Origin: an uncultured Sphingomonas sp.
GTDB taxonomy: Bacteria > Pseudomonadota > Alphaproteobacteria > Sphingomonadales > Sphingomonadaceae
Direction: 5' to 3'
NCBI GenBank assembly: GCA_913777325.1
Contig: CAJYSA010000075.1
Location: 1 to 53,682, forward strand
Length of the DNA stretch: 53,682 nt
Shown here: one piece after another, positions 28,044 through 46,349 of the stretch
Position numbering within the stretch: the stretch's first letter is position 1
Layout: every line of letters begins with the position of its first letter
Made by a program: the position numbers and the translations under genes
Notes under the pieces: generated by a model
What the model was told of the DNA's origin: nothing
The model's input: the letters and a program-made list of their open reading frames with translations, nothing else
The model's database searches: none

Positions 28044-30338
28044 TCAGACCTCCTTGCCGCCCGGTCGCGCCGTCAACTGCCCGGGGGAGATGAAGCCGAT
28101 CGGCTGGATCGCATTCGCCTCCTGCTTCAGCCGCGCGGCCATCTGCTCATATTCGCGCTCCACCTCGGGCGTCACGCTCGCACGGCTCTCGGTCAGCGCG
28201 CGCTCGAAATGCGCCATGCGCACCTCGCGCAGATCCAGCGATTCGCGCAGCGCGATCAGGCCGGCGCGGCGCACCACGTCCTCCAGATCGGCGCCCGTGA
28301 ACCGCTCCGCACGGTCGGCGATCGCGTCGAGATCGACATCGGCGGCCAGCGGCATCTTCTGCGTCTGGATATCCAGGATCCGGCGCCGCCCCGCCGCATT
28401 CGGCACGCCGACATAGACCAGCTCGTCGAACCGCCCGGGCCGCAACAGCGCAGGATCGACCAGATTGGGCCGGTTCGTCGCGCCGATCACCACCACCGAC
28501 TGGAGTTCCTCCAGCCCGTCCATCTCGGCGAGGATCGTGTTGACCACCCGCTCGGTCACCTGCGGCTCACCCATCCCGCCGCCGCGCGCCGGCACCAGCG
28601 AATCGAGCTCGTCGATGAAGATCACCGTCGGCGCCACCTGGCGCGCGCGCTGGAACAGCCGTGCGATCTGCTGCTCGCTCTCGCCATACCATTTGCTCAG
28701 CAGGTCGCTGGACTTGGTGGCGATGAAGTTCGCCTGCGCCTCGCGCGCCACCGCCTTGGCGAGCAACGTCTTGCCGGTGCCCGGCGGGCCATAGAGCAGG
28801 AAGCCCTTCGCCGGCCTGATCCCCAGTCGCCGGAACGCATCGGGGTTCTTCAGCGGCAGCTCGACGCCTTCCTTCAGCCGCATCTGCGCGTCGTCCAGTC
28901 CGCCGACATCGGACCAGCGCGTCGTCGGCGCCTGCACCATCACCTCGCGCATCGCGCTCGGCTGGACGCGCTTGAGCGCCTCGGTGAAGTCCTCGCGCGT
29001 CACCGCCAAGGTGTCGAGGACGTCGGCCGGGACGGTGCGATCCTCCAGGTTCAGCTTCGGCATGATCCGCCGTACCGCCTCGATCGCCGCCTCACGGGTC
29101 AGCGCCGCCATGTCCGCGCCGACGAACCCGAACGTCATCCGCGCCAGCTCGTCGAGATCGACGTGGTCGCCCAGCGGCATGCCACGCGTGTGGATGCCCA
29201 GGATCTCGCGCCGCCCGCGCTCGTCGGGGACGCCGACGATGATCTCGCGGTCGAATCGGCCCGGACGCCTGAGCGCCTCGTCGATCGCCTCGGGGCGGTT
29301 GGTCGCGGCGATCACCACCAGATTGGCGCGCGCCTCCAGCCCGTCCATCAGCGTCAGCAATTGCGCGACGACGCGCTTCTCCGCCTCGCCCGAGACCTGC
29401 CCGCGCTTCGGCGCGATCGAGTCGATCTCGTCGATGAACACGATCGACGGGGCGGCCTTGCTCGCCTCCTCGAACACGCTGCGCAGCCGCTGCTCCGACT
29501 CGCCATAGGCCGATCCCATGATCTCCGGCCCGTTGATGAGGAAGAATTGCGCGTCCGATTCGTTGGCCACCGCGCGCGCCAGCCGCGTTTTGCCGGTGCC
29601 GGGCGGGCCATGGAGCAGCACGCCCTTGGGCGGATCGACGCCCAGCCGCTGGAACAGCTCGGGATAGCGCAGCGGCAGTTCGACCATCTCGCGCAACTGG
29701 TCGATCGTGCTCGCCATGCCGCCGATGTCGTCATAGGTGACGTCGGCACGCCGCGCCGCCTGCGGCTCCTCATATTCGGCGCGCAGCTCGACCTCGGTCG
29801 ATTCGTCGATATGCACGACGCCCTTGGGGCTGGCCGAGACGACCAGCAGGCGGATTTCCTGCAGCGCATAGGCGGGCGCGTTGACGTAGCGCTCCATGCC
29901 CGGCGGCATGTTCTGCACGCGCTGGTGCCCGGCGGTCGCGACGATATCGCCCGCGCACAACGGACGCCCGAAAAAGGTGCGCTTCAGCGCGTTGGTCGAT
30001 CCCTGCAACCGCAGATTCTGTTGCGCGGGGGCGAAGACCACGCGGGTCGCGGGCTTCGAATCGGCACGGCGGACCTCGACGAAATCGCCCGACCCCACGC
30101 CGGCATTGGCGCGCTGCAACCCGTCGATCCGGACCAGCTCCAGCCCTTCGTCCTCGACATACGGGCCGATCGCGCGCGCCGGCGTCGTCTTCTTCCCGAC
30201 GATCTCCACCACGTCGCCGTCGGTGATCCCCAACGCCGCGAACACCGCGCGCGGCAGGTGCGCGACGCCGCGCCCGCTATCCTCCGGCCGCGCGTTCGCG
30301 ACCTGCAACCTCACCAGTTTCTCGTCGGCATCCGCCAT
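28044..30338 (-). CDS. CDC48/VAT-type AAA ATPase
   Basis: 764 residues with the full CDC48/p97 layout: an N-domain of double-psi barrel plus clam (about 5-185), then two AAA modules. D1: Walker A GPPGTGKT 244-251, Walker B FIDEID 301-306, arginine finger region [10 protein letters not shown]2: Walker A 517-524, Walker B FIDELD 574-579, LLRPGRFDE. The D2 pore loop has SKWYGESE, and D1 has GSAYGESE. Such proteins unfold tagged or aggregated proteins as hexamers. A CDC48 homologue is standard in archaea and eukaryotes and patchy in bacteria; no partner (proteasome, adaptor) is visible here. The C-terminus lacks the HbYX tail of archaeal forms and ends RPGGKEV. Gene stands alone. Confidence 0.92.
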
Positions 30339-30424
30339 ATCGATCCTTTCGCGGCTTGCAGCCGAGCGCAGGAGATAGGGCGCCGGTTCCGCATTGCGAG
30401 CCGCGCGATCATCGGCCGGACACG

Positions 30425-30454
30425 AAAAAAAAGGCCAGCCCCAAGGGGCCGGCC
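30425..30454 (-). terminator. Strong minus-strand intrinsic terminator
   Basis: Reading the minus strand: GGCCGGCCCC, TT, GGGGCTGGCC, then eight T. The stem is fully paired if one G-U pair is allowed, while the plus-strand version has an A-C mismatch and no clean T-tract. So it is oriented to the minus strand and lies 87 bases before the CDC48-type start. Confidence 0.8.
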
Positions 30455-30524
30455 GTTTGAAGTTTTTAGGAGAGGATGCCTGAAAGGCCCGCCCTATGTG
30501 CCGTCGGTCCGGCTTGTTCGCAAG
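30425..30524 (-). ncRNA. Candidate small RNA with anti-Shine-Dalgarno motif
   Basis: A self-contained ~100-base transcription unit on the minus strand, predicted from a promoter/operator (30531-30560), a likely start near 30524 and a strong intrinsic terminator (30425-30454). No gene lies upstream on this strand to explain the terminator. The RNA would carry an early TTGCGAACAAG stretch, a small hairpin GCCTTTCAGGC (complement of 30478-30488), an unpaired CCUCUCCU (complement of 30468-30475) and then the terminator stem. CCUCUCC can pair with ribosome sites of type GGAGAGG, which alphaproteobacterial anti-SD small RNAs do. Alternatively this is a leftover leader of a lost gene. No known RNA family was recognised. 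Confidence 0.5.
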
Positions 30525-30530
30525 TGCGAA

Positions 30531-30560
30531 ATGGTAGCGCTACGATTGCATTTTGAGCAA
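30531..30560 (-). promoter_or_regulatory. Promoter with LacI-type operator before candidate small RNA
   Basis: Minus strand TTGCTC (30555-30560), 18 bases, TACCAT (30531-30536). The palindrome TGGTAGCGCTACGA (30532-30545, core GTAGCGCTAC) covers the -10 region, a layout used by LacI-family repressors with a central CG pair. A second perfect inverted repeat TTCGCA-AG-TGCGAA (30517-30530) lies across the predicted start point. The same sites lie 100 bases before the plus-strand LysR gene and could serve it instead. Confidence 0.5.
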
Positions 30561-30645
30561 CTGACCCGACGATTCTGGTTGCACCAGCGACCGGATGTTG
30601 CATGATGCGCCGCAATAGCCATATCGGACCAGTCCCGGACCTGCC

Positions 30646-31530
30646 ATGCGTCGGCTTCCGCCCCTCACCGCGATCGAGGCCTTCGTGGCCGTCGCCCGGC
30701 TCGGCTCGATCAAGGCCGCGGCGCAGGAACTCGCGCTGTCGCCGCCGGCACTTAGCCGCCGTATCCAGACGCTTGAGCGCTTCATCGCGCGTCCGCTGTT
30801 CGATCGGCGGCATCAGGCGATGGTGCCCAACGCCGACGGAGAACGATTGCTGGCGGCAATCGCCCCCGCATTGGACGGCATGTCCGACGCGATCGAGGGA
30901 ATGACGAGCGGCAACGACGTGCTGCGACTGCGACTCGGCGTCTTGCCGCTCTATGCGTCGCAACGCCTGTTCCCGCGACTCGGCGAGTTGCGCGCCGCGC
31001 ATCCCGAGCTGCATCTGGATATCGACACCGGCGGCAACGCCCTGGCGCGACTCGGCGAGGGGCTGGACGCGGTGATCGTCGTCGCGCGCGATATCGACCC
31101 GATGCTGTACGCGGAGCGGCTGGACCGCAACATGGTCTATCCGATCGGCGCGCGCGCGCTGCTGGATGGCCCCCGCCCGCTGCGCGATCCCGAACAGATG
31201 CGCCAGCACAGCGTGCTGCTGCATCGCGACATGCCCGATACGTTCGCGGCGTGGAGCCAGGCGGCGGGGCATCCCGGCATGGAGCCGGTCGCGATCGATT
31301 ATTTCGATACCGGCGTGCTGATCCTGGAGGCCGCCGCGCAGGGGCTGGGCGTCGCCTTCATGCACGAGAACCACTTTCAGGATGCGAACGACCCGCGGCT
31401 CGTGCGGCTGTTCGACATCGATGTGACCAGCCCGTACAGCTATTGGTTCGCCTGCCGTCCGCGCGCGTTGCAGACCAAGCCGGTCAAGATCTTCCGCGAC
31501 TGGCTGATCCGCACGCTGCGCGAAGGCTGA
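30646..31530 (+). CDS. LysR-family transcriptional regulator
   Basis: 294 residues. The N-terminal winged HTH covers 1-60 (LTAIEAFVAVARLGSIKAAA, LSPPALSRRIQTLERF, RPLFDRRH). The effector-binding domain follows (LRLGVLPLYASQRLFPRL, then PVAIDYFDTGVLILEAAAQG LGVAF). The sequence pattern is nearest the GcvA/AmpR subgroup. The start MRRLPPLTAI at 30646 is the typical position, 3-5 residues before the first helix. LysR regulators often control the divergent gene; here the divergent side holds the candidate small RNA and then the CDC48-type gene. Target unknown. Confidence 0.9.
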   Translation: MRRLPPLTAIEAFVAVARLGSIKAAAQELALSPPALSRRIQTLERFIARPLFDRRHQAMVPNADGERLLAAIAPALDGMSDAIEGMTSGNDVLRLRLGVLPLYASQRLFPRLGELRAAHPELHLDIDTGGNALARLGEGLDAVIVVARDIDPMLYAERLDRNMVYPIGARALLDGPRPLRDPEQMRQHSVLLHRDMPDTFAAWSQAAGHPGMEPVAIDYFDTGVLILEAAAQGLGVAFMHENHFQDANDPRLVRLFDIDVTSPYSYWFACRPRALQTKPVKIFRDWLIRTLREG

Positions 31531-44503: not shown

Positions 44504-46153
44504 TTACTGTTCGTCGAACGGGCCGATCACCGTGCCGACGAAGCCGGTCGCGCGCGTGGTGCTGAGGAAACGCGTGTCGACCCCGGTGCGCAATGTGCGC
44601 GCCACGCCGCGCTGTGCATAATCGAACGCCATCGTCCCGCCATCGGCGCGGATCGTCAGCGTCACCGGCTGGTCCATGTCGACCGGCGCGGTCGCGACCA
44701 GCGTGTCGCGATCGGCATTGGCGCGCGTCCACAGCGCCACCACCGGGCGTCCCGCTTGCCGCGTCACCCCGAACAACAGCAAGGCGCGATCGTTCTGCAC
44801 CGCCGCCAGCCCGGCGCGCGCGCCCTCCCGCGCCGGCGCGTAGCGCATCACCGTCGAGATCGTCGCGACATGATGCTGCTGGCGCCGCCCGACGAAGGCG
44901 GGGACTCCGTTCAAATCGCCGAACCGCGCGCCGGGGCGCAGTTCCAGCACGCCGTCCGCGACACGATAGAACGGTTCCTTGGGGGTGCGGATGCCGATCC
45001 ACGGCAGCGCCAGGCGATCGCCCGCGAACGTATCGACATAGCCGAAGTCACCGCTGGTCGGCAGCGTCGGCGCCGCCCCGGCGGGCAGGTCCGGTCGCGG
45101 CGCGGCGAACGGGATCGGCTTTCCACGCGCGAGGATGTGCGGCCAGCCGCCCTTCCACGTCACGGGCAGCAGGAACGTCTCGCGCCCGATATTGTAGAGC
45201 CCGTCGCCATACGGACGCGTCGCCAGGAAGGTAGCCCACCATTGCCCGTTCTGCGTCTGCACCAGCTTGGCATGCCCCGCCGAGGTGACCGGATGCGCGC
45301 GGTCCGCCGGCAGGTCGCGCTGCGTCAGGATCGGGTTGCCGGCATAGGGAACGAACGGCCCGCGCAAGTGCCGGGAGCGGAACACGACCTGCGAATGGCG
45401 GTCGCCGGTGCCGCCCTCCGCCGCGGTCAGATAATACCATCCGTCCTTCTTCAGCAGATGCGGCCCCTCGATCCACACCGGCTTCGTCGCCAGATCGACG
45501 CCGCCGTTCACCAGTTGCGTGCTCTCGCCCATCATCTTGCCGGCGCGCCAGTCATATTCCTGCACCCAGATCGCGCGGTGCCCGTCGTAGCGCGGCGGCT
45601 CGGCGGGCGCGCGATTGTTGACGATGAAGGCGCGATCGCCCTCCCAGTGGATCGACGGATCGATCCCCTCGAACGGCAACCAGATCGGCTGCGACCACGG
45701 CCCCGCCGGATCGCGCGCGGTGATGACGAAATTGCCCCCGCACTCGACACAGGTGTTGACGATGTAGAAGGTGCCGGCGTGATACGAGATATCGGGCGCG
45801 AACACCGCCTGCGACACCCGCCGCCCGGTGAAGTCGAGCTGCGCCGGGCGATCGATCGCGTTGCCGATCTGCACCCAGTTCACCAGATCGGTCGAGCGGA
45901 ACACCGGCAGGCCGGGAAAGTGCGCGAACGACGAATTCACGAGGTAGTAATCGCGGCCCACCCGCGTCACCGACGGATCGGGATAATAGCCGGACAGGAT
46001 GGGATTGCGGTAATGCGCGGCGTCGGCCGTCACCTGTTCCTGGGCATGCCCGTCGTAGGAAAACCGCTCGAACCGCGCGACCTGCGCCTGCGCGACGCCA
46101 CCCGCCAGCAGCGCACCGACGCCCAGCGCGATCCCGTACCGAGCCTTCGCCAT
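44504..46153 (-). CDS. Secreted glycoside hydrolase family 43 protein
   Basis: 549 residues with a signal peptide (about 1-24). The five-bladed propeller carries the three GH43 carboxylates: base D59 in GYYPDPSV, pKa modulator D165 in GIDPSIHW, and acid E229 in WIEGPHLLKK. A C-terminal beta-sandwich (about 350-549) is the beta-xylosidase C2-type domain. Expected activity: beta-xylosidase or alpha-arabinofuranosidase on plant hemicellulose. The start is MAKARYGIAL at 46153, preceded by GGGAGAGGG; the ATG at 46198 is less likely. A LacI-type operator lies ~55 bases upstream. No transporter for the product is adjacent. Confidence 0.9.
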   Translation of the reverse strand: MAKARYGIALGVGALLAGGVAQAQVARFERFSYDGHAQEQVTADAAHYRNPILSGYYPDPSVTRVGRDYYLVNSSFAHFPGLPVFRSTDLVNWVQIGNAIDRPAQLDFTGRRVSQAVFAPDISYHAGTFYIVNTCVECGGNFVITARDPAGPWSQPIWLPFEGIDPSIHWEGDRAFIVNNRAPAEPPRYDGHRAIWVQEYDWRAGKMMGESTQLVNGGVDLATKPVWIEGPHLLKKDGWYYLTAAEGGTGDRHSQVVFRSRHLRGPFVPYAGNPILTQRDLPADRAHPVTSAGHAKLVQTQNGQWWATFLATRPYGDGLYNIGRETFLLPVTWKGGWPHILARGKPIPFAAPRPDLPAGAAPTLPTSGDFGYVDTFAGDRLALPWIGIRTPKEPFYRVADGVLELRPGARFGDLNGVPAFVGRRQQHHVATISTVMRYAPAREGARAGLAAVQNDRALLLFGVTRQAGRPVVALWTRANADRDTLVATAPVDMDQPVTLTIRADGGTMAFDYAQRGVARTLRTGVDTRFLSTTRATGFVGTVIGPFDEQ

Positions 46154-46205
46154 ATCCCTCTCCCGATGACCGTGCCGACCGATGCGGCTGTGCGCCAACC
46201 GTAGT

Positions 46206-46219
46206 CGGTAGCGCTATCA
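46206..46219 (-). promoter_or_regulatory. LacI-type operator before the GH43 gene
   Basis: Minus strand TGATAGCGCTACCG, a near-palindrome centred on AGCGCT, sharing GGTAGCGCTA with the site at 30532-30545. A possible promoter TTGAGA, 16 bases, TACGGT surrounds it. Xylose and related regulons of Caulobacter and sphingomonads use operators of this look; the regulator gene is not in the window. Confidence 0.55.
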
Positions 46220-46275: not shown

Positions 46276-46349
46276 TGGATGCCCGACAAGGACTCGAACC
46301 TTGATTGACGGAGTCAGAGTCCGCTCTCTTACCATTAGAGGATCGGGCA
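46276..46349 (-). tRNA. tRNA-Gln (anticodon CUG)
   Basis: A 74-base cloverleaf on the minus strand. The acceptor stem TGCCCGA pairs with TCGGGCA, starting with U1-A72 as expected for tRNA-Gln. The anticodon loop CTCTGAC (46313-46319) gives anticodon CTG at 46315-46317. The T-arm loop is GGTTCGAGTCC, and the 3' CCA is encoded (46276-46278). It reads CAG codons. It lies between the GH43 and ppx genes. Confidence 0.96.

Follow-up and report, generated by a model that had tools for sequence, protein, structure and literature searches.

An unannotated Sphingomonas copy of the alphaR8/MmgR/SuhB small RNA family and its conserved promoter footprint

Among the described systems closest to the RNA considered here is SuhB of Sphingopyxis granuli TFA, a 61-nt RNA that binds the 5'UTR of thnR together with Hfq and takes part in carbon catabolite repression; excerpts of a review describe its activity at a high rate of growth and in the presence of PHB, whose granules favour suhB transcription, and the legend of a figure there assigns some lines to unknown mechanisms (PMC6563040). 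In Caulobacter crescentus, SisA represses a TonB-receptor mRNA through an anti-Shine-Dalgarno (anti-SD) 10-mer, UUUCCUCCCU. Passages of the same source present SisA-D as several paralogues in one genome, each with a weak 5' hairpin, a single-stranded anti-SD stretch and a terminator, with TonB-dependent receptors among their targets and no promoter motif shared between siblings, and they place single-copy members of the family, like sisA itself, beside an N-formylglutamate amidohydrolase (FGase) gene (PMC12559287).

The first characterised member of the family is MmgR of Sinorhizobium meliloti, a 77-nt RNA encoded in single copy and controlled by NtrC. The repressor PhaR (AniA) acts on mmgR, whose promoter shifts in EMSA, through sites of the form YGCRNYGCR (PMC12542648), and the excerpted accounts mention no LysR neighbour (PMC12542648, PMC8401924); the PhaR site given for Bradyrhizobium is TGCRNYGCASMA (PMC6201568). 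Control of a small RNA by an adjacent LysR-type protein is described for Agrobacterium, in which VtlR binds and activates the neighbouring abcR1 gene; AbcR belongs to another RNA family, its genes lie downstream of the regulator gene, and for LsrB of S. meliloti the excerpt reports no such effect (PMC7486931).

We analysed a 53,682-nucleotide stretch of DNA from an uncultured Sphingomonas sp., the whole of which is referred to as the window. An initial annotation made from its letters had proposed a regulatory RNA on the minus strand, carrying an anti-SD motif and ending at a terminator of its own, that matched nothing recognised. The Rfam covariance model RF00519 matches window positions 30418-30495 (minus) at 45.6 bits, and because this exceeds the curated gathering score of 41, the RNA described as new is a member of a described family, for which we take the names suhB, MmgR and alphaR8 to be equivalent. 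The small RNA at 30425-30489 (minus) is, as judged from sequence, an unannotated Sphingomonas copy of this family, and thus an ordinary, unlabelled example of a kind of RNA that is not new; an orphan prediction becomes a named regulator of a family tied to PHB storage and carbon catabolite repression. Weak Rfam matches to a sobemovirus element, sbrA and a betaproteobacterial toxic sRNA lay below gathering and were taken as chance. The features of the locus are as follows.

28044..30338, minus strand: CDC48-family AAA ATPase, the downstream neighbour and a gene of its own (TIGR01243, 910 bits, cut-off 802.65)
30425..30489, minus strand: alphaR8/MmgR/SuhB small RNA, predicted at ~64 nt (RF00519, conserved core, covarying terminator)
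30425..30454, minus strand: Rho-independent terminator with a 9-bp stem, 4-base loop and U8 (terminator scanner)
30464..30477, minus strand: anti-Shine-Dalgarno stretch AUCCUCUCCUAAAA, mostly single-stranded (fold and conservation)
30478..30488, minus strand: 5' hairpin GCC-UUUCA-GGC (conserved in genus loci)
30495..30500, minus strand: -10 element CACATA (columns -12 to -7 conserved)
30518..30531, minus strand: box TTTCGCACTTGCGA including the -35 element TTGCGA (30518-30523), 17 nt before the -10 (fixed distance and columns)
30534..30543, strand-neutral: palindrome GTAGCGCTAC, the operator of the initial annotation (once in the 3.6-Mb assembly)
30546..30560, minus strand: TTGCTCAAAATGCAA, a degenerate copy of the dyad TTGCA-N5-TGCAA (comparison with orthologues)
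30606..30614, strand-neutral: TGCGGCGCA, a PhaR-like YGCRNYGCR site near the LysR start codon (motif; PhaR binding putative)
30646..31530, plus strand: divergent LysR-type regulator of 294 aa (PF00126, PF03466)

We consider it highly probable that these features, taken together, specify an alphaR8/MmgR/SuhB RNA of about 64 nt that would be transcribed from TTGCGA-N17-CACATA, end at its own terminator and, aided by Hfq, repress by anti-SD pairing, under a tentative control by LysR and PhaR. SuhB of S. granuli and this RNA are alike as sphingomonad small RNAs of 61 and ~64 nt, and SuhB shares the name of the Rfam family; the trans-acting, Hfq-dependent repression of the thnR 5'UTR is likened by description, not by sequence or locus (PMC6563040).

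The gap between the CDC48 and LysR starts is 307 bases. Eight mechanical ORFs of at least 20 aa overlap 30400-30560, the two longest being antisense to CDC48 and LysR. A frame of 81 aa runs for the most part antisense to LysR and the LysR leader; the others span 26-42 aa. The ORF list of the interval holds no likely protein gene between CDC48 (start 30338) and LysR (start 30646), bearing out the earlier statement that none fits there.

The assembly (3.6 Mb, 123 contigs) contains four RF00519 matches, three of them above gathering, and the window copy has the highest score. The neighbours of the other three were named by eye:

L002, G000:C84:21601-21674: RF00519 at 41.7 bits, beside a homoserine-dehydrogenase-like ORF
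L003, G000:C70:25354-25430: RF00519 at 41.4 bits, beside an FGase-like ORF
L004: weak RF00519 match at 29.9 bits, near sufB

The window copy, lying between LysR and CDC48, differs from sisA in not adjoining an FGase gene; the position beside such an ORF is occupied by L003, and the missing linkage does not exclude membership because extra copies at other places have been described for the family. Two RNA subtypes can be told apart within the genome, the window copy and L002 having a CCUCUCC core, a dyad and a -35 box, and L003 having a CUCCUCCC core, with no such dyad or box seen there.

The family and its arrangement are widely conserved. RF00519 was found at E<=0.001 in 120 of 121 sampled genus genomes (117 over the cut-off), and a DNA pattern of box plus hairpin occurs in at least 119 stretches of named genomes, the 80 matches listed including records named Sphingomonas, Novosphingobium, Sphingobium, Sphingopyxis and Erythrobacter. 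The cassette, with LysR divergent from the alphaR8 RNA and CDC48 downstream of it, is syntenic in relatives. A LysR orthologue is present in 288/295 genus genomes at E<=1e-100, and the RNA lies beside it in all 30 of the nearest LysR loci (29 by core, one by Rfam).

The layout of the RNA, a weak 5' hairpin followed by a single-stranded stretch and a Rho-independent terminator, is that described for SisA-D. The initial annotation had placed CCUCUCCU between two hairpins, which we confirmed (ATCCTCTCCTAAAA at 30464-30477, hairpin at 30478-30488), and its terminator with eight U was recovered, the stem having nine pairs by the scanner, not ten; the family match, hairpins and terminator together support a minus-strand regulatory RNA of the kind proposed. 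The 5' hairpin is found in 30/30 best-scoring genus loci fetched with RF00519 (L005-L034) and in 29/30 fetched with LysR, the exception (L209) having one changed loop base and CCTCTCC kept. Its pairs never vary in the structure set, so that covariation supports the terminator stem alone. There, both sides change while pairing is retained in 7 of the 8 pairs counted (7 of 12 by RNAalifold), all of the 286 cells of the named structure pair (100%), and neither any of 500 shuffles nor any slide reaches any of five measures, in a set of 26 sequences hand-picked from 152 distinct ones.

The anti-SD stretch has two bases paired in a 66-nt fold and more in a 71-nt fold, and its partial pairing in folds with a longer 5' end counts against the main reading. 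CATCCTCTCC occurs in 77/77 named Sphingomonadales copies examined among the matches listed (80 fetched, 3 dropped), CCTCTCC having been outside the search pattern, and CCTCTCCTA is invariant after the hairpin that was required of the 58 distinct genus copies. The core here, AUCCUCUCCU, differs from the 10-mer UUUCCUCCCU that SisA-D carry (PMC12559287), although both are CU-rich and occupy the same place; a form near that of the family, CUCCUCCCUGAAC, is found in the paralogue L003.

Upstream of the RNA, conservation marks a promoter. CGCACTTGC stands 40 nt from the RNA in 24/24 syntenic orthologues, and the 58 distinct genus copies have three conserved blocks: TTCGCACTTGC (-42 to -32, 1.1 to 2.0 bits), GCACATAG, and the 5' half of the RNA. 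CACATA (-12 to -7) carries 0.6 to 2.0 bits. These copies came from RF00519 or LysR searches in which the box was not required, and were kept if they held GCCTTTCAGGCAT; some genomes were fetched twice, and distinct sequences were counted. Motif counts used 61 genus loci, of which 60 passed and L209 was left out for its loop change, and 77 of 80 listed named loci (3 dropped for a short flank or missing T-run). Column and motif counts alike select for the hairpin, since loci were kept only with it. Columns were taken at fixed distance from the RNA, so those upstream of the box are blurred by one-base indels; a gapped alignment of the syntenic loci gave the same picture. The promoter is most likely TTGCGA-N17-CACATA, downstream of the earlier placement, and from the -10 element we infer a 5' end at ~30488 (plus or minus 2) and an RNA of ~64 nt. 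A promoter scanner run on the window listed neither this promoter nor the earlier one.

The initial annotation had the RNA begin near 30524 from TTGCTC-N18-TACCAT and run for about 100 nt under a sugar-type operator at GTAGCGCTAC, which a LacI-type repressor would bind. Its letters are all present as given (TTGCTC at 30555-30560, TACCAT at 30531-30536 after N18, GTAGCGCTAC at 30534-30543), the GH43 gene of the window has a related palindrome, and TAGCGCTA stands in the same spot, at most 10 bases before the box, in 9/295 genus genomes, all nine sites at alphaR8 cassettes. The columns, however, are poorly conserved both for its -10 (-48 to -43, 0.06 to 0.77 bits) and for the palindrome (-55 to -46, 0.03 to 0.36 bits), the seven closest relatives keep the RNA without the palindrome, the conserved -35/-10 pair lies downstream at fixed spacing, and 100 nt is longer than the 61 nt given for SuhB in the review excerpt (PMC6563040). 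Its -35, TTGCTC, is the left half of the conserved dyad, and position 30524 belongs to the conserved box and immediately precedes the -35 element. With the columns poorly conserved and the palindrome not conserved in the closest relatives, we rejected the idea that this promoter and operator drive the RNA; the whole reading is highly improbable, its start and length being most likely wrong, as the conserved promoter places the start ~36 bases further on and gives ~64 nt.

A LacI-family repressor might instead be added to the alphaR8 RNA with its downstream promoter, binding TAGCGCTA between the dyad and the -35 in this species and about eight others, and exerting a sugar control shared with the GH43 xylosidase-type gene. 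The nine occurrences in 295 genomes are more than chance (~0.03 expected, by a base-composition estimate that treats genomes as independent), a backward-read control pattern appears in 3/295 genus genomes, and the same core lies upstream of GH43. Nevertheless, half of the 18 genomes with a LysR at least 85% identical have TAGCGCTA (9/18), the seven nearest (96-98%) have it at the aligned spot in 0/7 cases, and among the 80 named loci listed it lies within 75 nt of the RNA in 3, two of them downstream of the box. Further, GTAGCGCTAC marks no regulon, as it occurs once in the assembly. The backward-read counts (39 vs 1 for the assembly, 3 vs 9 genomes) were not taken as a proper null. The exact-box searches behind these counts (295 genus genomes; named genomes) miss copies with a changed box. 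We regard such added control as unlikely. The sugar-type operator is thus not a defining part of the unit, and of the cassette first proposed the RNA is conserved in relatives and the operator largely is not; TAGCGCTA may nonetheless serve as an operator in certain species. A paralogue that has decayed and is no longer expressed, surviving only as a terminator while other copies do the work, would fit the absence from the window copy of a -10 PhaR-like site and of one dyad half, which most sisters have; yet it retains an intact core, -35, -10 and terminator that agree with theirs, and its RF00519 score is the best of the four, so this reading is very unlikely.

In the alignment to window positions 30530-30550, TAGCGCTA of the window is replaced by TACCGCTA or otherwise altered in the seven closest species (L186-L192), yet it is found in species further away (L193-L200), so that its distribution is patchy.

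For the alphaR8 RNA transcribed from the conserved promoter, the analysis suggests an order-wide promoter footprint and, with it, a hypothesis linking PHB, PhaR and LysR. The dyad TTGCA-N5-TGCAA is centred near -64 and has a T-N11-A shape. LysR boxes have this shape, with a dyad near -65 of the divergently transcribed unit, and the dyad is a possible LysR-type box through which the divergent LysR-type protein, more tentatively, would govern transcription of the RNA. TTGC-N7-GCAA occurs in 13/24 syntenic orthologues, in 44/77 named copies among the matches listed (0 to 6 for eight other spacings) and in 35/60 genus copies (0 to 10 for eight other spacings). The half TTGCA is intact in most of the closest relatives, and in the window copy one half is broken. 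The exact dyad has three sites in the assembly, on contigs C2 and C61 and before L002, whose locus has no LysR match. Among the 80 named loci listed, LysR and CDC48 both lie within 700 bases in 24, LysR is the sole one of the two in 9 and CDC48 in 16, and neither is there in 31 (matches at E<=1e-10, a cut-off that may miss diverged neighbours); the dyad occurs at 16 of these 31. Because it is found also at loci with no LysR match, control by LysR is not proven; at such copies either the regulator would act in trans or another protein would bind.

The arrangement recalls VtlR and abcR1, where a LysR-type protein acts on a neighbouring RNA gene; it differs in RNA family and in gene order (PMC7486931). 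It also differs from the Sis siblings, for which the excerpted source gives no shared promoter motif (PMC12559287), in that the window copy and L002 share the dyad and a similar -35 box. Among the papers listed in a literature survey we noticed none on control of an alphaR8 RNA by LysR or PhaR in sphingomonads.

Sites resembling that of PhaR recur in these promoters, similar to those described at mmgR in the excerpts (PMC12542648, PMC8401924). The window copy has one, on the LysR side (TGCGGCGCATCA, 11/12 to TGCRNYGCASMA), and none of the form YGCRNYGCR at the RNA -10, where most sister copies have one; L002 has TGCGGCGCACAA there. In 17/24 orthologues a site begins 14-41 nt away from the LysR start. 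YGCRNYGCR was found in 21/24 orthologue promoters vs 5.8 expected (from first-order Markov samples, not exact dinucleotide shuffles), in 59/77 named promoters among the matches listed vs 7, 17 and 17 for spacings 0, 3 and 4 (9 to 22 for four composition controls), and in 55/60 genus promoters vs 14, 34 and 24 (composition controls 12 to 27); the box and the dyad themselves occupy spacings 2 and 5. The contrast is weaker in the genus set, in which the N3 control is itself common (34/60), and counts from related species are not independent of each other. Most often the sites lie at the -10 (22/77 named among the matches listed; 34/60 genus) and on the side of the divergent gene. PhaR is encoded in the genome, and TTATTGTGCAGTGCAGCAATTAC, found upstream of a phasin gene close to where that gene probably starts, matches the PhaR consensus. 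TTTCGCACTTGCA was rejected as a PhaR site, its half-sites being 2 apart and those of the published consensus 1.

More tentatively, then, the PHB-sensing repressor PhaR would govern transcription by way of YGCRNYGCR sites, which lie at the LysR end in the window copy and, in L002 and many relatives, at the -10; this would agree with the repression of mmgR by PhaR in S. meliloti and with the favouring of suhB by PHB in S. granuli. It is possible, though we lean against it, that in Sphingomonadales PHB titrates PhaR and so frees the LysR gene, the RNA -10 or both, that LysR activates the RNA through the dyad, and that the RNA shuts down nutrient-uptake and catabolic mRNAs and a phasin; if true, this circuit would account for the reported rise of suhB transcription with PHB granules in S. 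granuli. The footprint of LysR-type dyad, fixed -35 box and PhaR-like sites is in this sense a candidate coupling of stored carbon to nutrient uptake through this RNA, a connection for which physiological reports exist in S. granuli.

From the cases in Caulobacter and Sphingopyxis and from AGGAGAGG sites in this assembly, we infer that the RNA, with Hfq, would pair through CCUCUCCU to GGAGAGG-type ribosome sites in mRNAs for nutrient uptake and catabolism, blocking their translation, as reported for SisA and SuhB. The initial annotation had named the GH43 gene, and its ribosome site and operator-like palindrome were both verified (GGGAGAGGG at 46156-46164 before the ATG at 46151-46153; TAGCGCTA at 46209-46216).

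46151..46164, minus strand: GH43 ribosome site GGGAGAGGGATATG, candidate pairing site (sequence and duplex energy)

With the 24-nt linker of the RNA the GH43 site is predicted to pair at -17.8 kcal/mol; since 4.3% of 600 random ATG windows reach this value, GH43 is a reasonable but unremarkable candidate. The palindrome there, GGTAGCGCTATC at 46207-46218, lies ~54 bases upstream of the GH43 start, between GH43 and tRNA-Gln (46276-46349, minus).

Ribosome sites of TonB receptors, like that of GH43, are reasonable candidate targets. TonB-dependent receptors are among the targets of SisA-D (PMC12559287). AGGAGAGG-N2-10-ATG has 14 distinct sites in the assembly, of which 11 open a gene (3 were dropped as opening 17-33 aa). 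Five of the 11 genes concern transport (two TonB receptors, an SDF dicarboxylate symporter, an SSF symporter and an MFS transporter), and the others encode an alpha-galactosidase-like protein, a class II aldolase, an FAA hydrolase, a 3-hydroxyisobutyrate-dehydrogenase-like protein, an AraC regulator and a flavodoxin-fold protein; several are catabolic. The control AGGAGAAG has 18 distinct sites, 10 of them scanned (of the rest, 7 were excluded for a length below 72 aa or, once, for a frame apparently antisense, and one had no row). Six of these 10 genes have Pfam hits (OmpA, citrate synthase, PBP, DUF885, ribosomal L9, DUF6165), none of the six being a transporter or TonB receptor, and four have no hit, at least one of which looks non-coding. 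Both target sets are small, and GGAGAGG is itself Shine-Dalgarno-like. Predicted duplexes are -17.1 to -23.6 kcal/mol for the 11 candidates vs -13.1 to -17.8 for the ten controls, -16.3 for CDC48 and -9.7 for LysR; the candidate values prove nothing because the candidates were chosen for the 8-mer.

The second phasin gene, L169 (G000:C85:14013-14288), has the ribosome site GGGAGAGCAAGG and a predicted duplex with the RNA of -18.1 kcal/mol, the other phasin giving -10.7; this is in line with the repression of phasins by MmgR that excerpted accounts report for S. meliloti. An hfq gene is present in the genome. The Hfq family matches twice within one 198-aa frame (L234/L235, G000:C72:19786-20217), apparently a tandem double-Hfq-domain protein.
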